DNA of 11,807 nt, from NCBI GenBank assembly GCA_018262385.1, contig JAGSPQ010000027.1:1-11807 (forward strand). Direction: 5' to 3'. Below the pieces are notes generated by a model. The model worked only from the letters and a program-made list of their open reading frames with translations. It searched no databases and was not told where the DNA came from. The stretch's first letter is position 1; each line of letters starts with the position of its first letter. A program made the position numbers and the translations under genes. Origin of the DNA: Myxococcaceae bacterium. GTDB lineage: Bacteria > Myxococcota > Myxococcia > Myxococcales > Myxococcaceae. Positions 1 through 11,344 of this stretch are shown here, piece after piece.

Positions 1-1037
1 GGATGCTGGGCCTGGGTCGACTTCGTCCAGCTCACCTGAAGGCCCGCCGCGTCGAAGCGCGCGGCCAGCGAGCCCGGCGCGCGCAGCCCGAGCAGCTCGG
101 CGAGGTTGGACATCAAGAGCCACCCTTCCCCGCCGGGGCCCAGGTGCCCGGCCAGCCCGGCGAGAAAGCCGTCGAGGAAGGCGCTGTTCTCGTCGAAGAC
201 CGCGCGATCGAGCCGGTTCTTCGGAGGCTCGGGGATCCACGGCGGGTTGGCGACGACCAGGTCGGCGCGGCCGGGGGGAAACAGGCTCTCCTCGCGCGCT
301 TCGAAGCGGCCCGCCAGCCCGAGCCGCTGGGCGTTCTCGATCGCGCAGGCGACCGCGCGCGGATCGACGTCGGTGCCGATCGCGTGGGTGGCGCCGCGCT
401 GGAGCAGCAGAAACGAGAGCACCCCGGTGCCGGTGCCGAGATCGAACACCCGCTTGCCTTCGGGCGGCGGCGCCTCGAGCAGCAGGTCGACGTACTCCGA
501 GCGGGTGGGCAGAAAGACCCCGTAGTGGGGGTGCAGCTTGCCCGGCAGCCCGCGCACCGCCAGGCCCTTGCGGTACCACTCGGCCGCGCCGAGCATTCCG
601 ATCAGCGCCTTCAGCGGCACCACCGTCGGCAGCGCGGCCGGGCCCCAGACGGCGGTACACGCCTCGGCGACGTCGGGCGCGTTCTTCAGCTGGGCCAGCC
701 GGTATTTCGGATCCAGCTTCACCACGATCCGAGAAAGGGTCTCGTGCTCGCGCAGCCGAGCCGCCCGCTCGGCCCGGAACTCCTCGAGCGCCGATCGGTT
801 CTCGGGCCGGCGGCCGCCGCCGAGCTTGCGGCCCATCGCCGCCAGCAGCTGCCGCGCGTTGCGGAAGTCGCCCTCGTAGAGCAGGTGCTCGTTCTTGACC
901 CGCTTGAGCGCCGCCTGGGCGTTGAGCCGGTCTCCGACCCGGGCGAGCTTCGCCGGCGGCGGGGCCCCGCTCTCGGAGCGCCACAGCAGCTCGACGCCGC
1001 CGTCGCTGAAGCGGACCTCGGGGTCGATCGCGCTCAC
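1..1037 (-). CDS. Class I SAM-dependent methyltransferase with NPPW motif (3' end outside window)
   Basis: Probable S-adenosylmethionine-dependent methyltransferase of the 'methyltransferase small' (MTS) type, the fold used by RsmC/RlmG rRNA guanine methyltransferases and PrmC/HemK glutamine methyltransferases. I read 345 codons from GTG at 1037; the stop lies beyond the left edge. Residues 1-190 form an alpha-rich N-terminal region that I cannot assign. The catalytic domain begins near residue 195 with motif I FDLGTGTG (198-205), then an acidic strand end (GTDVDP), then motif IV NPPW (264-267). NPPW/NPPY is typical of enzymes that methylate a planar nitrogen, so the target is probably a nucleobase or amide nitrogen; the exact substrate cannot be read. 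The start overlaps the stop of the preceding peptidase by four bases (GTGA), which implies translational coupling. The frame matches that of the unshifted peptidase, so care is needed not to fuse them. The methyltransferase family is sure; the substrate is not. Confidence 0.85.
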   Translation of the reverse strand, partial: MSAIDPEVRFSDGGVELLWRSESGAPPPAKLARVGDRLNAQAALKRVKNEHLLYEGDFRNARQLLAAMGRKLGGGRRPENRSALEEFRAERAARLREHETLSRIVVKLDPKYRLAQLKNAPDVAEACTAVWGPAALPTVVPLKALIGMLGAAEWYRKGLAVRGLPGKLHPHYGVFLPTRSEYVDLLLEAPPPEGKRVFDLGTGTGVLSFLLLQRGATHAIGTDVDPRAVACAIENAQRLGLAGRFEAREESLFPPGRADLVVANPPWIPEPPKNRLDRAVFDENSAFLDGFLAGLAGHLGPGGEGWLLMSNLAELLGLRAPGSLAARFDAAGLQVSWTKSTQAQH

Positions 1038-3500
1038 CGCTGACGGCGCACGCGACGTCGCAGCAGCGGCGCGCCGAGCAGCGCCAGCCACCACAGCTCG
1101 GCAGCCCCCGCGGAGCAGCCGCAGCCCGTCCGCGCCGCCGCGCCCAGGGGCGTCGGGTAGGTCTCGACGATGACGTTCGCCGGGGGAGGAGTCCCGGCGT
1201 CGGGCGGCGGCTGCGTGCCCGCATCGGGGACGGCGGTGCCGGCGTCGATCACCGTGCCCGCGTCGGGGATGACCACGCAGCTGTCGGCCTCGACGAACGA
1301 GTAGGCCAGGTCTGAAGTAGAGCTCGCCGCCGCAGGGCACGTCGATCAGCGCGGTGCCGCTCATCGTGCCGCCGCCGGCGGTCGGCACCACGCTCTTGTC
1401 GGCGTCGTGGGTCAGCGTCTGCCCCGCGCGGGTGAAGGTGATCGGCTGGTTGGCCTTGGCGAGCAGCGCCAGCCGCGCCGTGGTGCTTCCGCCTCCGCTG
1501 AAGTACGGACCGCTGAGGGTCACGCTCTTGGCTCCCTTCGGGACGCGGATCTTCATCTGGTACGGGCCCGGCACCCCCTGCCCGCTGCCGAGGGCGGCGT
1601 AGGCGGAACCGGAGATGATGTAGACCTTGCGCGGGCTGGGGATGCTGGTGACGTCGAGGACCTTCGAGCAGCTGGAGACGCCGCGGGCGTCGAAGATCTG
1701 CTTCATCTGCGCCTGGGCCAGCGGCAGCGCGGGGAACGCCAGGCCGACCGCGCTGGAGATGATCGCGGCCGCCTTCTCGAAGCCGACGTTGGGCGGGAAC
1801 GAGACCAGCGCGGCATAGAACGCAGCGTCGAAGGTGCGGCCCTGATCGGTGCCCTGGAACGCGGTCGCACGCGCCTGCCAGATCGCGCCGGCGAAGTGCT
1901 GGCTGTCCTGGTGCGATTCGCCCCACAGCACGTCGGGGCACTTGTCGGTGTTGTTGGCGTTGCGCAGCGCCGCGCTGCCGAAGTCGGTGCGGGGGCCGAC
2001 GTACTGACCGATCGCCGACTCCTGGCCGACCATGAACGCGATCACGTCGGCGACGCCCTCGTGGAGCGCCGACGACTCGTCATTCGACGAGCGGGCGTCG
2101 ATCTCGACTCCGCGGTTCCAGTTGGAGGTCGAGTAGATCGCGCCGTGGCCGAACTCGTGCCACACCACCGGCGCGTCGTACGCAAAGTCCGCCTTGTCGC
2201 CCTGGTAGATCACCAGCGCGTCGGTGTCGAAGGCGAACTCGGGCACGGTGACCGCCTGCATGTTCTCGCGCGCGAGGAACATCGCGTTCTCGACCCGGGT
2301 CATCGTGTTGCTGACGTAGACGCCCTGGGCGTTGGGGCTCTGGGGGAAGGCCGGCTCGCTGGCATTGACCTGGATCGCCGGGACCTTGCCGAGCTTCGAG
2401 TCGCGCATCGCGAAGGCCGAGAACCCGGCGTCGGCGGTCAGCGGCCCAATCGAGAGGGCACGCAGGTAGTCGTAGACCTTGTTGACGTGGAAGTAGGCGT
2501 GTACCTCGGCAAACTCGTCGAAGTCGGCGGGCGACTGGGGGTTGGGGCCGGCACCGGTCGGAACATCGGTCGGCGCGTAGAGGTAGTTGCCGTTGGGGTT
2601 CACCGCCGGATCGTTGGTGGCCCGCTGGTACCGATCGCAGATCGCCAGGTCGTAGCTGACCGTGCCGCCGAAGGTCTGGAACATGCCGGTCGCGCGGCGG
2701 GCGGGGGCTCCGGCGTCGAGGTTGCAGTTGGCGGTCGGGCAGCAGTTGAAGGCGCGGATCAGCTCGCCGCTGAGCTTGCCGCCGTCGACCCCGGCCGGGA
2801 AGTGATCGAGCGTCACCGGGGCGAGCGGGGTCACGCCGACGCCGGTGCTCAGCCCGCCGGGGCTGGAGGCGTAGACGTTGGCCTCGAAGCCGTGGCGGAC
2901 GCGATCCTCGCTCCACAGCACCGTGCCGTCGGTGGCGTCGATCGCCAGGTGCCAGTTCTGGGAGGTCTTCCAGGTGGGCACCCAGACGAAGTAGCCGGCG
3001 TGGAGCTCGTCGCCGACGGGGAACATCTTCTGCTGGTAGCCGCCGTAGGGGACGCCGCCGTTCTGGAACACCGCGCCCTCGATCTGGCGCGCGCCCGCCA
3101 GCAGCGCCTGGGGCCCGGTGAGGCTCCAGCTCAGCTTCACCCGGTCGTAGGAGCGGAGGCTGGAGGCGACCCGCACCACCCTGCCCTGCAGATCGAAGGT
3201 GACGATCACCTTGCCGCCATACACCTCGAGGCCATCGACGAGCTGGGGCAGGTGCACCGAGCCGCCGAAGCGGGTGGCGAACGTCTGGGCCGGACCCAGG
3301 CTGGAGGTGATCGGCAGGCCCAGCTCGGCGCGGTGGCTGAGGACGAACGCGCGGGCGGCCTCGCGCAGATCGCCGGCAGAGGGGCCGCTGAGCACCCCCT
3401 GCGCGAGGGCGATGTGCCCGTCGGGGGTGGGGACCACGTTCCAGGAAGGCTCGGTGGGCACGCCCAGCAGCAGCGGGGCGATGGCGAGGAGAGCGAACAT
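1034..3500 (-). CDS. Secreted M36/M4-like zinc metallopeptidase with MYXO-CTERM tail; frame change near its end
   Basis: Probable secreted zinc endopeptidase of the gluzincin type (fungalysin M36/thermolysin M4-like). From ATG at 3500 the product starts with a short hydrophobic signal-like stretch (FALLAIAPLLLG). An FTP-type propeptide follows at about residues 30-110, including 'LPQLVDGLEVYGGKVIV', then the catalytic region. HEFGH at 448-452 supplies two zinc histidines and the general-base Glu; E481 in HEGVAD fits the third zinc ligand; H535 in QHFAGAIW fits the transition-state His. After F729 the frame changes by one base. The other frame then gives about 92 residues: an acidic start, four (P/I)DAGT-type units, and a MYXO-CTERM-like end (CGCS, hydrophobic stretch, RRRVRR), which would anchor or sort the protein at the cell surface. 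The restored length is about 821 residues. The ribosome binding site at 3500 is weak and the signal peptide lacks basic N-terminal residues, so the start is the least sure part. Confidence 0.82.
1037..1147 (-). other. MYXO-CTERM-like C-terminal sorting segment of the peptidase
   Basis: The last residues of the shifted frame have the three parts of a MYXO-CTERM tail. A Cys-containing signature (TGCGCS) comes first, then a short hydrophobic helix (AAELWWLALLGAPLL), then an Arg cluster (RRRVRRQR) right before the stop. In myxobacteria such tails are associated with cell-surface sorting and anchoring of secreted proteins. The Pro/Asp/Ala/Gly/Thr repeats upstream (about 1190-1276) look like a flexible cell-wall or surface spacer. 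Confidence 0.7.
1310..1316 (-). other. Frame change inside metallopeptidase gene
   Basis: On the minus strand the codons GAG CTC TAC TTC are followed by one extra A (plus-strand T at 1313), then GAC CTG GCC TAC in the next frame. The upstream frame carries the whole catalytic protein; the downstream frame carries the DAGT linker and sorting tail. Without the shift, the upstream frame turns into Arg-rich out-of-frame sequence with no stop and joins the methyltransferase frame at 1037. There is no homopolymer or obvious slippery site here. A one-base insertion or a two-base loss, either real or from sequencing, explains it equally well. Confidence 0.8.
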
Positions 3501-5741: not shown

Positions 5742-7370
5742 CTACGCGGAGGTTGTCGAGGCGATTTCGGTTCGTCGTGACGAAGGGGTCCAGGTGTCGG
5801 CGAGGAAAGTCTGCAGCTTCGGCTGATCTTTCTTCAGCAGCTCGCTCATCCGGCACTCGAGGATCAGCCCCGCCGCATTCAGCCCGCTCAGCGAGGCCCC
5901 GGGTACCCCGTGACCCATCGTGCTCGCTCCGCACAGCGTGAGGCCCTTGAACACCGAGGCCTGCTTGAAGCCGAAAGGCCCCAGCTGCCCGAGGACCTTC
6001 TCGGTGCCGTAGATGTTGCCGCGGGTGGCTTCGACGTAGTGGACGTTGGTCAGGGGCGAGCCGATGTCCTGGAACACCACCTTCTTCGTCAGCCCGGGGA
6101 TGCCCTTCTCGATCGCGGCCAGCATCTTGTCGGCGATCTTCTGCTTGAAGGCGAGGTACTCCGGGCCGTGCTCGCCGGACTTGCCGTTCGCGTACTTCTC
6201 GAAGATCTCGTACGGCACGAAGGTGAACGCCTCGCCGGTGTGGTGCTTGCCGTTGAAGCTGCTCGGATCCTTGAGCGAGGTGATCGAGACGAAGATCCCC
6301 GGCAGCTCGTCGAGCTCGAGCACGTCGGGCCGCGCCATCGCGGAGTAGGCCGCGTCGGCGTCGAGGCCCGGGCACAACCAGTAGTTGCCCGAGTCGAGCC
6401 CCAGCCCCTTCACGTCGGCCTCGACGGCGAAGAACAGGCTCACCGCGGTGGTCGACCACTTCGTCTTGCCGAGCTTCTTGCGCAGGCCGCCGGGCAGCTG
6501 GGCGTCGCCGATCAGCCGGCCGTAGGTGATCGCCGGGTCGGCGTTGGAGACGACGTGTTTGGCCCGGATCTCGGTGCCGTCGGCGAGCTTCACCCCGATC
6601 GCGCGCTTGTTCTCGAGCAGGATCTGGTCGACCCGGGTCTCGAGCTTGATCACTCCGCCGGCGCGGGTCAGCGCGCGGGTCAGCGCCTTGGGCATCGCCG
6701 AGCCCCCGCCCTTCGGGTACCAGGCGCCCTCGAGGTAGTGGAGCGCGACCGTGGCATGGAGCGCGAACGGCGCGCGCGAGGGAGAAAGGCCGTGATCGCC
6801 GCACTGCACCGCGAGCAGCCCGCGCACCGCCGGATCCGAGATCCGATCGCGCAGGATCCGATCGAGGCTGTACATCCCGAAGCGGCCCATGTGGCGGGTG
6901 CGGTACGGCACCGTCAGCGTCTGCAGCAGCCCGTGGGTGTTCGCCAGCTCGCTCAGCTCGTCGCGCACCGTCTTCGACAGCTCGAGGAAGGCGCGGATCC
7001 CCTTCTGCTCGTGGGGGAACTTCGCGCACAGCCGCTCGATCAGCGCCTCCTTTCCGGCGGGGAAGTCGAAGGTGATCCCGCCGGCGCGGACGTGATCGTA
7101 GCCGTCGGGGTTGATCTCGAAGAACTGGAGGAACTCGCCCAGGCCCAGCCCTTCGAAGGTGGCGCGCATCTGCCCGCCTTCCTGCAGCTGCCCCAGGTAG
7201 TGAACGCCGGGGCTGAAGCGGTGGCCGCCGAGCGCGAAGCTGTGGGTCCAGCCGCCCGGCACGTAGTGCTGCTCGAGCACGACCACCTTCTGACCGGCCT
7301 GGGCGAGCGCGACCGCCGCCGTGAGGCCTCCCATCCCGGAGCCGATCACCACCACATCCACATCCACCAT
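5742..7370 (-). CDS. FAD-dependent oxidoreductase, phytoene desaturase / retinol saturase (CrtI/CrtISO/RetSat) type
   Basis: Flavin enzyme of 542 residues acting on conjugated or polyene-like hydrophobic substrates; in this family the reactions are desaturation, isomerisation or saturation of carotenoids and retinoids. The N-terminal dinucleotide-binding fold is clear: VVVIGSGMGG (6-15), with E33 at the end of beta-2 to bind the ADP-ribose of FAD, followed by HYVPGG. The C-terminal flavin-binding motif CGASTMGHGVPGASLSG, near residue 480-500, is typical of the CrtISO/RetSat branch. A middle stretch (AWYPKGGGSAMPKAL) matches the family's conserved substrate-domain signature. Length is normal. 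No other carotenoid gene is in view, so the substrate cannot be named. The start ATG lies 89 bases from the divergent small membrane protein; ribosome binding site GGCGGG is weak. The last 20 residues are Ser/Thr-rich and poorly family-like. Confidence 0.9.
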   Translation of the reverse strand: MVDVDVVVIGSGMGGLTAAVALAQAGQKVVVLEQHYVPGGWTHSFALGGHRFSPGVHYLGQLQEGGQMRATFEGLGLGEFLQFFEINPDGYDHVRAGGITFDFPAGKEALIERLCAKFPHEQKGIRAFLELSKTVRDELSELANTHGLLQTLTVPYRTRHMGRFGMYSLDRILRDRISDPAVRGLLAVQCGDHGLSPSRAPFALHATVALHYLEGAWYPKGGGSAMPKALTRALTRAGGVIKLETRVDQILLENKRAIGVKLADGTEIRAKHVVSNADPAITYGRLIGDAQLPGGLRKKLGKTKWSTTAVSLFFAVEADVKGLGLDSGNYWLCPGLDADAAYSAMARPDVLELDELPGIFVSITSLKDPSSFNGKHHTGEAFTFVPYEIFEKYANGKSGEHGPEYLAFKQKIADKMLAAIEKGIPGLTKKVVFQDIGSPLTNVHYVEATRGNIYGTEKVLGQLGPFGFKQASVFKGLTLCGASTMGHGVPGASLSGLNAAGLILECRMSELLKKDQPKLQTFLADTWTPSSRRTEIASTTSA

Positions 7371-7702: not shown

Positions 7703-8470
7703 TCAGTGCGCGAGCCACCCGGCGTCCATCGTCTGGGCGGTGCCGGTGATGCTCCAGGCCTCGCGCCGGCAGAGGAAGGTGACCAGGTGCGCGACGTCCT
7801 CGGGCTCGATCAGCCGCTTGATCGCGTTTCGGGTGAGCATCACCTTCTCGAGCACCTCGGCGGGGGGAATGCGGTGCACCCGGGCCTGGTCGGCGATCTG
7901 CTTCTCGACCAGCGGAGTGCGGACGTAGCTGGGGCAGATCGCGTTCACCGTCAGATCGGGGCAGCGCGCGCCGGCCTCGAGCGCGACGGTCTTGGTCAGG
8001 CCCAGCAGCCCGTGCTTGGCCGAGACGTAGGCGCTCTTGAAGGGCGAGGCGATCAGCCCGTGCACCGAGGCGATGTTGATGATCCGGCCCCAGCCGCGCT
8101 GGTACATGCCCGGCAGCAGGCCGCGGATGAGGGTGAACGGAGCGGTGAGCATCACCTGGAGGATCAGGTCCCACCGGGCGGGGTCGAAGCTCTCGATCGG
8201 GCTCACGTGCTGCAGGCCGGCGTTGTTGATCAGCACGTCGATCGGGCCGGCGGACTCCACCAGCGCCTCGACCGCGCCGCGGACGCCGAGGTCGGCGGGA
8301 AGGCGCTGCACCCCTTCGAGTGGGGCGAGCGCGTCGGACAGGCGCTCGGCGCTGACGTCGCTGGCGACCACCTGGGCGCCCTGGGCGTGGAGCTCGCGCA
8401 CGATCGCCAGCCCGATTCCGGAGGCGGCGCCGGTGACCAGCGCGCGCTTGCCCTTCATCGCGGCGCTCAT
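7703..8470 (-). CDS. bdhA: (R)-3-hydroxybutyrate dehydrogenase (SDR family)
   Basis: NAD-dependent short-chain dehydrogenase of 255 residues that interconverts (R)-3-hydroxybutyrate and acetoacetate in the cytoplasm, the step that feeds polyhydroxybutyrate breakdown products into central metabolism. Visible SDR features are TGAASGIG (13-20), NNAG (82-85), catalytic S135, Y148 and K152. The residues that bind the substrate carboxylate in characterised 3-hydroxybutyrate dehydrogenases (Gln, His, Lys, Gln) correspond to Q87, H137, K145 and Q191. Family-specific strings are present: NNAGLQHVSPIE, RIINIASVHGLIASP and the end TMDAGWLAH. The start ATG at 8470 overlaps the hydrolase stop (ATGA). A strong GAGGAG ribosome binding site (8484-8479) lies eight bases upstream, inside the hydrolase's last codons. 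So the pair is an operon, presumably under the palindromic operators ahead of the hydrolase. Confidence 0.93.
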   Translation of the reverse strand: MSAAMKGKRALVTGAASGIGLAIVRELHAQGAQVVASDVSAERLSDALAPLEGVQRLPADLGVRGAVEALVESAGPIDVLINNAGLQHVSPIESFDPARWDLILQVMLTAPFTLIRGLLPGMYQRGWGRIINIASVHGLIASPFKSAYVSAKHGLLGLTKTVALEAGARCPDLTVNAICPSYVRTPLVEKQIADQARVHRIPPAEVLEKVMLTRNAIKRLIEPEDVAHLVTFLCRREAWSITGTAQTMDAGWLAH

Positions 8471-9324
8471 CGCAGGAACTCCTCGACCGCGCGGGCGGTG
8501 TCCGGGTGGTTCATCACCCCGTAGTGGTTGGCCTCGATCTCGACCACCCGGGCGCGGGGCGCGGTGTCGAGGAAGAGGTTCCGATCGGCGGCGGTGACGA
8601 CGTCGCCTCCCGGAGCGAGCGGGATCGCCGCGCGCACCAGCAAGGTGGCGACGCCGACCCCGGACCACAGCTCGCGCACCTGGGTGCCGGCGGCGTAGCC
8701 CATGTCCTCGAGCACGGCGGCCTGGCTGGCGCGCTGCGCAACTCCGCCCGGCACCTCGACCAGGTCTTCCCGGTAGTGGGCTTCCCAGAACGGCCCCCAG
8801 GGGACGACCCCGGCGGCGCGCACCCTGGAGAGAAACGCCTCGGGCGACGGGTGCACCGTCCCCAGCCGGTTCACCGCCGCGAAGATCGGGGGCATCGCGC
8901 GCGGGTCCGGAACTCCCACCGCGTCGATCAGCACCAGCCGGCGCAGCCGCGCGGGCGCCAAGTTGGCGAGGACCAGGCCGATGAACGCGCCCATGCTGTG
9001 GCCGACGAAGTCGAAGCGGTCGACCCCCAGGGCGTCGGCGACCGCGATCACATCGCGGGCGTGGTTCTTCCAACCGTGACTTCCGTGGACGCCGGCGGGG
9101 CTGCGGCCCCGGCCGCGCAGATCCAGCGCCGCCAGTCCCCTGCCCTGCCTCGCCAGGCCCGCGCCGAGCGCGTCGAAGGTGAAGGAGTTCGCCGACAGCC
9201 CCGGCACCCCGATCGCCAGCGGAGCGCCGGCAGGCCCATGCCGGCGGACCCGCATCGGGCCGACGGCGAGGGCGAGCAGCTGATTGTCGGGGGCAGGAGC
9301 ATGTTGCAGTGCAGCATGGGGCAT
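8467..9324 (-). CDS. Alpha/beta hydrolase, first gene of the 3-hydroxybutyrate dehydrogenase operon
   Basis: Serine hydrolase of 285 residues with an alpha/beta fold. The nucleophile elbow is GHSMG with S110. A DLRGRGRS loop lies at 68-75, and the catalytic His is H267 in EANHYGVMNHPD; the acid is probably an Asp in the GGDVVTAAD loop. The usual HG of the oxyanion loop is replaced by GVPGLSANS (39-47). Substrate is not readable. Coupling to 3-hydroxybutyrate dehydrogenase suggests an ester or oligomer of hydroxybutyrate, which is inference; the protein lacks an export signal and does not show a classical PHB depolymerase architecture. I chose ATG 9324 because AGGGA (9337-9333) sits eight bases before it. 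The first 23 residues are low in complexity, and a palindromic operator (9301-9317) falls inside codons 3-8. Met 24 (9255) is the other possible start but has no ribosome binding site. Confidence 0.88.
   Translation of the reverse strand: MPHAALQHAPAPDNQLLALAVGPMRVRRHGPAGAPLAIGVPGLSANSFTFDALGAGLARQGRGLAALDLRGRGRSPAGVHGSHGWKNHARDVIAVADALGVDRFDFVGHSMGAFIGLVLANLAPARLRRLVLIDAVGVPDPRAMPPIFAAVNRLGTVHPSPEAFLSRVRAAGVVPWGPFWEAHYREDLVEVPGGVAQRASQAAVLEDMGYAAGTQVRELWSGVGVATLLVRAAIPLAPGGDVVTAADRNLFLDTAPRARVVEIEANHYGVMNHPDTARAVEEFLR
9301..9317. promoter_or_regulatory. Palindromic operator candidate 1 (ATGTTGCA-G-TGCAGCAT)
   Basis: A 17-base inverted repeat with eight-base arms around one central base and a single mismatched pair. 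It lies just inside the hydrolase reading frame, right after the chosen start. Its core TTGC-AGT-GCAG resembles the CTGC-N3-GCAG type site reported for PhaR. It is the first of four similar sequences within 315 bases. Confidence 0.55.
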
Positions 9325-9361
9325 GGGCGGATTCCCTAAGGGTCAAGCGCGAGGAATGGCG

Positions 9362-9391
9362 CGAATAACCCGGACTCATGTTGCAGTGCAA
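9362..9391 (-). promoter_or_regulatory. Possible promoter of the hydrolase operon
   Basis: On the minus strand TTGCAC (9391-9386) could be a -35 element, and TTATTC/TATTCG (9368-9362) a -10 element, at 17-18 base spacing. It is a poor match to the housekeeping consensus (about half of the positions), but the -35 lies inside the perfect palindrome, an arrangement expected for repression. Transcription would begin about 30 bases before the start codon. Confidence 0.2.
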
Positions 9392-9394
9392 CAT
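9378..9394. promoter_or_regulatory. Palindromic operator candidate 2 (perfect ATGTTGCA-G-TGCAACAT)
   Basis: A perfect 17-base palindrome, eight-base arms around one base, 54 bases upstream of the hydrolase start. Such symmetry around an odd centre is typical of a homodimeric helix-turn-helix regulator site. It is the best copy in the cluster, and its centre lies 77 bases from that of copy 1 and 76 from that of copy 3. Confidence 0.7.
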
Positions 9395-9454
9395 AATCCG
9401 CCACCCCCTCCCGGCCTCCCCGCTCTGACGCGGGCCTGGCCGGGCGCCCCGACT

Positions 9455-9469
9455 TGCTGCATTGCAGCA
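9455..9469. promoter_or_regulatory. Palindromic operator candidate 3 (perfect TGCTGCA-T-TGCAGCA)
   Basis: A perfect 15-base palindrome whose core is exactly CTGC-ATT-GCAG, the form described for PhaR in purple bacteria. It lies about 130 bases upstream of the hydrolase start in non-coding DNA, so coding constraint cannot explain it. Confidence 0.65.
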
Positions 9470-9598
9470 TTTTGCCCCCCCCCAGCCCGCCTCGGTTCCC
9501 CCGCGCGTCCCGGCGGAGGCGGACCCGTCTCGAGCAGCCGGGGGCGGTCAGTGCTGCCGGCGGATCAGGGGCGGGCGGCGCGGCGCCCGGCCCCGGAA

Positions 9599-9615
9599 AT
9601 GCTGCACCGCACCAT
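9599..9615. promoter_or_regulatory. Degenerate operator candidate 4 (ATGCTGCA-C-CGCACCAT)
   Basis: A 17-base sequence with the left arm ATGCTGCA intact and two mismatches in the right arm. It sits two bases beyond the stop codon of the dioxygenase gene. Weakest of the four copies; it could be a low-affinity site or a coincidence. Confidence 0.3.
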
Positions 9616-9617
9616 TT

Positions 9618-10409
9618 TCAGCGCGGCGAGAAGACCGGGAAGAACACCCGCGGGGCGCGCTTCTTGCGCAGGCAGCGGGTGGCGGCGCTCATGTAGCAAA
9701 CCGAGAGCGCCAGCCGGCGCTTGCCGGTGCGGCTTCTTCCCGAGCGATGCCAGAGGTTGTTGTGGACGAGCACCACCTCTCCGGCGGCGGCGGGAAGAGG
9801 AACCGCGCGCTCGTTCGCGCGGGCCGCGGCCACCTTGTCCGCAGGCACCACCCCGCCCAGCGGAGTGACCAGCCCGCCGACGTGGCTGCCGGGGATCACC
9901 TCGAGGCAGCCTCCATCGATCGGCGCGTCGTCGAGCGCGGTCCAGATCTGCACGAAGGGATCCTGGCTCAGCCCCCACAGCTTGCCGCCGTCCTGGTGCC
10001 AGGGAATGTCGCTGCCGCCGGGGATCCCCTTGTTGAAGACGATCGCGCGGTAGAGCACCACCGGCCCTTCGATCTGCGCTCGGGTCACCTTCTCGAACAG
10101 CGGGTTCTCGAGCCAGGCGAGGAAGCGCGGGTCCTTCTCGAGCTTCTCGAGCTTGCGATACGCCAGCGAGGGCCCCTGCCAGCCGAGCCCGATCGGCGCG
10201 TCCTCGTATCGGCCGGTCTCGGCGTCGAGCTGGAAGAACAGCCCCGGGTAGGTCACCCGGCCGAGCATCAGATCCTCGGCGCGCTCGCGCAGGGCGAGCA
10301 GCCCCGCGTCGTCCAGCACCCGGCCCAGGCGGGCGTAGCCGTGCTCGGCCAGGTGGGCGAGCGGTCCGGTCAGATCGAGGTGCTCGGCGCCGGGCAGCAG
10401 CATCGTCAT
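9618..10409 (-). CDS. Phytanoyl-CoA dioxygenase (PhyH) family Fe(II)/2-oxoglutarate oxygenase
   Basis: Non-haem iron oxygenase of 263 residues that should couple oxidation of a substrate C-H bond to decarboxylation of 2-oxoglutarate. The iron triad is complete: H138 and D140 in PWHQDGG, and H221 in LWHRSG. R231/R232 in RRLALSVCY fits the 2-oxoglutarate carboxylate contact. The family string CLEVIPGSHVGGL is present. PhyH-like proteins in bacteria have many substrates, including natural products and lipids, so none is assigned. The ATG at 10409 overlaps the aldo/keto reductase stop by four bases (ATGA), so the two are translated from one message and probably act in the same pathway. A second in-frame ATG two codons later (10403) cannot be excluded as the start. 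The basic C-terminus (RCLRKKRAPRVFF) is somewhat unusual. Confidence 0.9.
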   Translation of the reverse strand: MTMLLPGAEHLDLTGPLAHLAEHGYARLGRVLDDAGLLALRERAEDLMLGRVTYPGLFFQLDAETGRYEDAPIGLGWQGPSLAYRKLEKLEKDPRFLAWLENPLFEKVTRAQIEGPVVLYRAIVFNKGIPGGSDIPWHQDGGKLWGLSQDPFVQIWTALDDAPIDGGCLEVIPGSHVGGLVTPLGGVVPADKVAAARANERAVPLPAAAGEVVLVHNNLWHRSGRSRTGKRRLALSVCYMSAATRCLRKKRAPRVFFPVFSPR

Positions 10410-11344
10410 CTCGCGTAGCTCGCGTCGGTGCCGACGAACGCCCGGTGGGCCTCGTCGATCTTCGTCCGCAAGGAAGCAGTCAGCTCGACCGCGCACCCGT
10501 CGATCGCGCAGTCGAGGTGGGCGACGGTGGCCGGGCCCGCGAGCACCGAGTCGACTCCGGGGCGCCCGGCGAGCCACGCGTAGGCGAGCGTCACCCGATC
10601 GATCCCCTCGGCCTCTCCGATCGCGCTCAGCTGCTGGGCGAGGGTGCAGAGCGCCTGGGTCCAGTAGCGCTTTCGATAGATCGCGTTGCTCGCAAACCGC
10701 GACCCGGCGGGAATCTCGGCCCCGGGCGAAGGCGCGCGGGCGAGCAGCCCTCCGGCGAGCGGGTTGTAGACGGTGACGTGGATCGGGTTCTTCCGGGCGA
10801 AGGCGAAGAACTCGAGATCGAGCTGCCGCACCAGCACGTTGTAGAGCAGCTGCGCCACCTTCGGCCGGGGCAGCTTCCGCGCGTCCGCGGCGAAGTCGAG
10901 CTCGGCGATCTGCCAGGCGGCGTAGTTCGAGACGCCCCAGGCGCGGATCTTCCCCGACTCGAGCAGCGCCGCGATTCCGTCGAGCGTCGCCGCGATCGGG
11001 GTCGCGGGGTCGGGAGCGTGCAGGTAGTAGAGATCGACCCACTCGGTCTGCAGCCGCGCCAGGCTCTCGTCGAGCGCCGCGACCAGCCGGGCGGGCGCCA
11101 GCCCTTCCGGACGGCCACCCCGGCGCAGCAGGCCGACCTTGGTGGCGAGCTGGACCTGGTCCCGGCGGCCCTTCAGCGCGGCCCCGACGATCCGCTCCGA
11201 CTCGCCCTCGCCGTACATGTTCGCCGTGTCGAAGAAGGTCGCGCCGCGCTCGAGGGCGCGATCGACGATTCGACGGGCCTCGGGCCCCGGAGTCCTCGCT
11301 CCGAAGTTCATCGTTCCCACGCTGACGCGGCTGGGGGAAAGCAC
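10406..11344 (-). CDS. Aldo/keto reductase
   Basis: NADPH-dependent carbonyl reductase of 312 residues with the AKR (beta/alpha)8 barrel fold. The catalytic tetrad is visible: D39 (FFDTANMYG), Y44, K69 (ATKVG) and H109 (DLYYLHAPD). Other family strings are GKIRAWGVSNY, YNPLAGGLL and the cofactor-binding end VDSVLAGP. Length fits the family. I chose the GTG start at 11344 because an AKR needs the first beta-strand before GTMNFG, and GAGAG (11356-11352) lies seven bases upstream. ATG at residue 12 would cut into the barrel. Substrate unknown. Overlap with the downstream dioxygenase (ATGA) suggests that one enzyme makes or consumes the other's product. The start lies 40 bases from a divergent plus-strand gene. 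Confidence 0.92.
   Translation of the reverse strand: MLSPSRVSVGTMNFGARTPGPEARRIVDRALERGATFFDTANMYGEGESERIVGAALKGRRDQVQLATKVGLLRRGGRPEGLAPARLVAALDESLARLQTEWVDLYYLHAPDPATPIAATLDGIAALLESGKIRAWGVSNYAAWQIAELDFAADARKLPRPKVAQLLYNVLVRQLDLEFFAFARKNPIHVTVYNPLAGGLLARAPSPGAEIPAGSRFASNAIYRKRYWTQALCTLAQQLSAIGEAEGIDRVTLAYAWLAGRPGVDSVLAGPATVAHLDCAIDGCAVELTASLRTKIDEAHRAFVGTDASYAR

Follow-up and report, generated by a model that had tools for sequence, protein, structure and literature searches.

Putative PhaR-type operators ahead of a hydrolase-bdhA operon in a Myxococcaceae genome

Four similar palindromes are clustered at the start of an operon for 3-hydroxybutyrate oxidation in the window, the whole 11,807-nt stretch of DNA analysed here (contig C606 of its assembly). 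Which regulator, if any, would these sites serve? An earlier note on this DNA had proposed a PhaR-like regulon responding to polyhydroxyalkanoate (PHA). The sites, the operon, its orthologues and the PhaR-type genes of the family were compared in order to answer this question.

The palindromic sites and the operon behind them

The whole window was searched for ATGYTGCANTGCARCAT with up to three mismatches. Four matches were found, starting at 9301, 9378, 9454 and 9599, with 0, 0, 1 and 2 mismatches, respectively, compared to 0.02 on average and at most 1 in 200 dinucleotide shuffles of the window. The four copies were therefore recovered at the places given in the earlier note, and its centres (9309, 9386, 9462 and 9607) and spacings (77, 76 and 145) were correct. 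Its count of two perfect copies applies to the degenerate pattern. As palindromes, only the copy at 9378 is perfect, and the numbers of mismatched pairs are 1, 0, 1 and 2 in the same order. The R. eutropha 17-mer, with up to two mismatches, also found just these four places, in agreement with the claim that the window holds no further copy. The bare 9-base core TGCRNYGCA showed one extra occurrence in the window, at 7870.

The sites are located between a PhyH-type gene upstream of them (9618-10412, minus strand) and the hydrolase-bdhA operon, which has the same orientation. All four are assigned to the minus strand. Site 1 (9301..9317) overlaps hydrolase codons 3-8 if the start is the ATG at 9324, and it lies downstream of the candidate promoter. 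Site 2 (9378..9394) is the perfect 17-bp palindrome ATGTTGCACTGCAACAT in the minus-strand reading and forms the proximal putative operator over the candidate -35 element. Site 3 (9454..9470) is an upstream copy of the putative operator, and site 4 (9599..9615), the weakest copy with its two mismatched pairs, lies directly past the stop of the PhyH-type gene. Tandem duplication of 77-bp units was considered as a source of the copies and is not indicated, because the local alignment scores (15 and 21) roughly correspond to the length of the shared site.

The first gene of the operon (8467..9324, minus strand) encodes an alpha/beta hydrolase of 285 aa (Pfam PF00561, 59.6 bits). It displayed only distant matches in NCBIfam, including the intracellular scl-PHA depolymerase NF050089 (31.5 bits, cut-off 300), and no specific family was found for it in Pfam/NCBIfam and other sequence searches. 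The second gene, bdhA (7703..8470, minus strand), encodes a 3-hydroxybutyrate dehydrogenase of 255 aa from the ATG at 8470. Its match to TIGR01963 was 308.6 bits, barely above the cut-off of 307.05 (query 7703-8485), and its best PDB sequence matches were 3-hydroxybutyrate dehydrogenases, with 3v2h, a D-beta-hydroxybutyrate dehydrogenase, at the top. The bdhA start overlaps the hydrolase stop by 4 nt (ATGA). These matches support the assignment of a 3-hydroxybutyrate dehydrogenase to the downstream operon, with bdhA in second place behind the hydrolase. The assignment to a myxobacterium was also upheld by the named hydrolase relatives, which are Myxococcus, Archangium, Myxococcaceae and Myxococcales MAGs at 64-67% identity.

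Two other regions of the window were noted. A CrtI/carotenoid-isomerase-like FAD oxidoreductase (5742-7370, minus strand) follows bdhA on the same strand after a gap of about 330 nt and may or may not be co-transcribed with it. One long ORF at 3-3500 (minus strand) exhibited, by eye, a metalloprotease-like N-terminus, a methyltransferase-like C-terminus and a garbled middle, which may reflect frameshifts or an assembly overlap of two genes.

Consensus fit, orthologous operons and the candidate promoter

The PhaR core TGCRNYGCA, with its single central base, was present in all four window sites. Compared to the R. eutropha consensus YTKNTGCRNYGCANMAR, for which three mismatches are allowed (PMC12849132), sites 1-4 showed 2, 2, 1 and 2 mismatches. 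The B. diazoefficiens 12-mer consensus TGCRNYGCASMA, derived from bound promoters, footprinted ones among them (PMC6201568), was matched exactly by three of the four sites (0, 1, 0 and 0 mismatches), and the S. meliloti 21-mer was matched with 2, 0, 0 and 0. The earlier note had equated the core with the CTGC-N3-GCAG form of PhaR site, that is CTGCNNNGCAG, the R. sphaeroides form cited in PMC12542648. This was true of site 3, which fits exactly, but sites 1, 2 and 4 deviate by 1, 2 and 1 mismatches, and the other PhaR consensuses fit better.

The arrangement was also compared to three known PhaR systems. B. diazoefficiens PhaR has sites at phaP1, phaP4, phaZ1 and phaZ3 and shares the core TGCRNYGCA; the 12-mer at the core of window site 1 is the same as its phaZ3 site TGCAGTGCAGCA (PMC6201568). 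A phaP4 site overlaps the -35 element, PhaR represses PHB-degrading genes, and polyhydroxybutyrate (PHB) abolished DNA binding by PhaR in vitro in that organism (PMC6201568). However, B. diazoefficiens is an alphaproteobacterium, and bdhA, rather than being a target, is named in that paper once as background. Its footprinted 12-mers end in CACAA, whereas those of the window end in AACA, AGCA or ACCA (PMC6201568).

R. eutropha PhaR binds phaP1 and phaP3 at degenerate palindromes with a single central base, with multiple sites per promoter, located around -35/-10 and within the coding region, as in the window (PMC12849132). In contrast to the window, the targets are phasin genes, and the outer bases are Y...R rather than mostly A...T (PMC12849132). 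S. meliloti AniA/PhaR has the core NYGCRNYGCRN with AT-rich arms; that two sites flank the -35 of phasin promoters and that PHB depolymerase genes are targets was also counted as likeness (PMC12542648). As a difference, neither 'bdh' nor 'hydroxybutyrate dehydrogenase' occurs as a word start in the main text of that paper (PMC12542648).

Orthologous operons were found by protein in five other genomes (L011, L012, L013, L014 and L015, equal to G003, G111, G015, G055 and G004), four of them also by a profile search of 58 genomes; the pairing of loci and genomes was judged from identical gene tables and sites. The earlier note had named absence of the sites ahead of orthologous operons as evidence against its proposal. 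All five operons carried 1-3 sites (up to two mismatches to ATGYTGCRNYGCARCAT) within 300 nt around the start, and shuffles of each 300-nt region reached such sites in 3-9 of 2000. Each of the five genomes contains two PF07879 genes. Two distant homologues with 48% identity and no adjacent bdhA (L093 and L094) had sites in neither case.

The number and spacing of the sites differed among the operons. Of the six operons, that of the window has the largest number of sites and the best ones (four sites, one of them a perfect palindrome). In the relatives the spacing is 45 (L013 and L014, and L011 too if a site with three mismatches is counted) or 32 and 54 (L015). Looping or cooperative binding, which the earlier note had drawn from the even spacing, is without support, because the copy number and the 77/76 spacing are not kept in the relatives.

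A conserved promoter-like arrangement was observed at one of the sites. In the window, a candidate -35 element TTGCAC (9386..9391, minus strand), inferred from the geometry, lies within site 2. A candidate -10 element TATTCG (9362..9367, minus strand), proposed from TATYCS conservation, follows 10 nt past the site with an 18-nt spacer. TATYCS is located 9-10 nt downstream of one site in all six bdhA operons, the window and five relatives. Its chance occurrence at two positions is about 0.0002 per operon, for a pattern picked after looking. The composite element is TTGCNN, with TTGC inside the palindrome, a 17-18 nt spacer and TATYCS; promoter stretches were compared at fixed offsets, as the MAFFT alignment was too gappy. 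A generic sigma-70 scan of 9200-9700 showed no promoter and no terminator, so the promoter argument rests on conservation and not on consensus strength.

In each of the five relatives, a GTG begins 7-8 nt past TATYCS and is in frame with the hydrolase match, suggesting that the hydrolase-bdhA message there may be leaderless or nearly so. In the window, the hydrolase ATG is 38 nt past the candidate -10. Since one site covers the candidate -35 in 6/6 operons, repression through blocked RNA polymerase is likely.

PF07879 paralogues and PhaR-type sites across the family

The family set contained 96 genomes including that of the window and was taken as Myxococcaceae since the named records match members. 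A PF07879 protein was present in 95 of them, the sole exception being the window's own genome; two copies occur in 21 genomes and a single copy in 74. Five proteins, from both one-copy and two-copy genomes, showed the PhaR1 type, marked by IKRYTNRKLYDT, and in a sixth locus (L066) this motif was not in the displayed part. As an observation in its own right, the loci L058, L062, L071, L077 and L085 hold this near-universal paralogue in genomes with and without PhaR2. The PhaR1 protein tested showed 94.0 bits to PF07879, no PF05233 and a weak coiled-coil match.

The PhaR2 type, marked by KKYGNRRLYDT, adjoins phasin-like, class III phaC-like, SDR or PHB depolymerase genes in the 12 loci displayed. 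The PHB depolymerase of L117 matched TIGR01849 with 540 bits, and the small phasin-like genes, which have no family match, are named from position and look. All 21 second copies were above the PF07879 cut-off of 25 (94.4 bits for L124), and the one PhaR2 protein tested reached 24.9 bits to PF05233, slightly below its cut-off of 27. The only NCBIfam family matched by PhaR2 was the equivalog TIGR01848, with 91-103 bits in 5/5 tested proteins. These values are below the cut-off of 109.45, and PhaR2 is therefore named PhaR-like and not equivalog. PhaR1 scored 89 bits, so TIGR01848 separates the two types poorly.

PHA synthesis is not always paired with PhaR2, because G006 has a single PhaR and yet carries a class III PhaC-like gene matching TIGR01836 with 314 bits. 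That family was added for five genomes because PF07167 is a poor test for PhaC, a relative's class III PhaC reaching 20.6 bits against a cut-off of 23.7. The TIGR01836 cut-off was passed in none of the five genomes, and matches of 217-314 bits were found in three (G006, G070 and G001). Gene calls in the relatives were made with a simple ORF and GC-frame script.

The phaR2 loci themselves carry the core at fixed places. Twenty of the 21 loci were counted, G040 being left out for want of a phaR2 start, and expectations were taken from the remainder of the same loci. The core TGCRNYGCA was located 0-19 nt after the phaR2 stop in 19/20 loci (expected 0.003 per locus) and 31-60 nt before the conserved KKYGN of PhaR2 in 16/20 (expected 0.005 per locus); these counts, like that for the five orthologues, are not independent, since clusters and orthologues are related by descent. 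The full 17-mer, with up to two mismatches, was near phaR2 in 10/20 loci. Random 500-nt windows from the phaR2 loci matched it in 8.4% of cases, a background that is inflated because these loci carry sites themselves, so that the shuffles and the fixed-position count are the better controls. The positions suggest that phaR2 may be autoregulated and may control the following gene as well.

Genome-wide, exact TGYTGCANTGCARCA sites were found in 9/21 two-PhaR genomes (13 sites) compared to 6/74 one-PhaR genomes (6 sites; Fisher p 5.5e-4), and the other 12 two-PhaR genomes had none. The reversed-pattern control gave 4 hits against the 13 sites and 8 hits against the 6. All 13 sites in the two-PhaR genomes adjoin PHA, 3-hydroxybutyrate, acetate-kinase or HMG-CoA-synthase genes. 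They are located at hydrolase-bdhA (G004, G055 and G111), in phaR2-phasin/phaC clusters (G003, G005 twice, G020, G042 and G055), directly ahead of phaC (G001), ahead of an extracellular-type PHB depolymerase and of acetate/propionate kinase (both G015), and ahead of HMG-CoA synthase (G004). The six sites of the one-PhaR genomes are inside ORFs, as three pairs of orthologous hits. In 12 genomes (the window's own and 11 two-PhaR genomes), the looser TGYTGCRNYGCARCA gave 37 sites, some of them coding, and its control 8 hits; G012 and G017 had no site.

Several single loci were also recorded. In L114 (G004:C600), a PhaR-type site at 3137 lies at the start of HMG-CoA synthase (TIGR01835, 383 bits), with a near-match 46 nt off at 3183. 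PhaR-type sites lie next to an acetate/propionate kinase gene in L023 (G015:C174, at 1500) and L038 (G070:C58, at 1501). The L038 site is divergent from an SDR gene, which is followed by a thiolase-like gene, both named by eye. In L108 (G015:C197), a site at 2784 is located at the 5' end of an ETF-beta-like gene adjoining an acyl-CoA dehydrogenase-like gene, again by eye.

The window's own assembly (5.57 Mb in 1057 contigs, estimated 78.9% complete) contributed little to this pattern. The earlier note had looked to a genome scan for sites at phaC, phasin and phaR genes, and none was seen in this 79%-complete assembly. Six other exact TGYTGCRNYGCARCA hits (C431, C432, C543, C584, C598 and C651) are coding by ORF calls; for C584 the automatic gene caller gave no gene, and an open reading frame spans the site. 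Two further 17-mer hits (C193 and C434) are also coding. The own genome therefore adds no further regulon member. As to a random spread of sites through the genome, which would have spoken against a regulon, the distribution was non-random in the two-PhaR relatives, but the own genome gave no support.

The earlier note had counted the lack of a PhaR-type protein in the genome against its proposal. Neither a PF07879 protein, nor PhaC_N, nor a class III PhaC was found in this 79%-complete assembly, and the PhaR2 profile met only a C-terminal piece at E 0.02. Given 21% missing, the chance that the PhaR1 locus and the PHA cluster are both absent from the assembly is estimated at about 4% if independent, which leaves true loss some weight. 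Because a PhaR1-type match is present in 95/95 other genomes, incompleteness or binning is likely the simpler reading of the missing PhaR than true loss.

A putative PHB-released operon and its alternatives

Taken together, the consensus fit, the sites at orthologues and the phaR2 clusters with sites at fixed places support a PhaR-like, PHA-responsive regulon in the family and make one likely in the window. We consider it highly probable that a PhaR-type repressor (PF07879, a PHB-granule sensor), probably PhaR2, uses the four palindromes as operators, and that the hydrolase-bdhA operon is released by PHB. At low PHB, PhaR2 dimers would occupy the palindromes. PhaR2 on site 2 would cover the -35 of the hydrolase-bdhA promoter and block RNA polymerase, and sites 1, 3 and 4 would raise the local PhaR2 occupancy. 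As PHB accumulates, PhaR2 would be drawn to the granules and the operon released; growing granules take up PhaR in R. eutropha (PMC12849132). The hydrolase and BdhA would then be made, ready to convert released 3-hydroxybutyrate to acetoacetate. We infer the binding by PhaR2, the repression and PHB as the signal, the last of which has been reported for PhaR in other bacteria.

Three other explanations were weighed against this one. The sites could be relics of a PhaR system in a lineage that lost PHA synthesis and PhaR, leaving the operon constitutive or otherwise regulated, and the absence of PhaR and PhaC from the own assembly is what such a loss would leave. However, no other of the six operons has as many or as good sites as the window, which is unlike decay, and with 21% of the genome missing even the otherwise universal PhaR1 was not found; we regard relics as unlikely. 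Binding by PhaR1 instead of PhaR2 is quite unlikely as well. This near-universal paralogue has the same DNA-binding domain, its match occurs in all 95 other genomes, and its equivalog score is close to that of PhaR2. Yet the exact sites of the 74 one-PhaR genomes do not exceed the control hits and are all coding by ORF calls, it is the PhaR2 clusters themselves that carry the core, and the PhaR1 protein tested is without the PF05233 region that the PhaR2 protein tested weakly shows (one each).

Palindromes of 17 bp are usual for several regulator families, and no regulator gene was seen in the window to decide the matter. A different dimeric regulator of TetR, LysR or GntR type, sensing 3-hydroxybutyrate or acyl-CoA, would make the likeness to PhaR sites convergent. 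The core at fixed places in the phaR2 loci and the fit to published PhaR consensuses argue against such convergence, and we hold this explanation to be very unlikely.

A wider reading is offered tentatively, and as a whole we consider it somewhat less likely than not. The PHB granule may, via PhaR2, set the expression of the whole exit route of the polymer in Myxococcaceae. This route would comprise the hydrolase and 3-hydroxybutyrate dehydrogenase, to which the relatives would add PHB depolymerase, acetate/propionate kinase, HMG-CoA synthase and the ETF/acyl-CoA dehydrogenase locus. PhaR1 would serve another, non-granule purpose.

PhaR operators and PhaR repression of PHB-degrading genes were already known (PMC6201568), and the cited PhaR work covers alpha- and betaproteobacteria, with phasins, PHB synthesis and breakdown, and central metabolism as its subjects (PMC6201568, PMC12849132 and PMC12542648). 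In the open-licence literature, where a null search is no proof of absence, no report was found of bdhA as a PhaR target or of PhaR in Myxococcota. The accessible part of PMC5596199 does not present bdhA as a PhaR target, and PHA genes have been reported in Myxococcota MAGs, without PhaR in the portion available (PMC11821767).

The present analysis extends the putative PhaR operator type to a myxobacterial family, both in phaR2 clusters and ahead of a monomer-oxidising gene. Through it, bdhA becomes a candidate direct target of PhaR. These results offer a testable carbon-storage regulon in predatory, multicellular bacteria.
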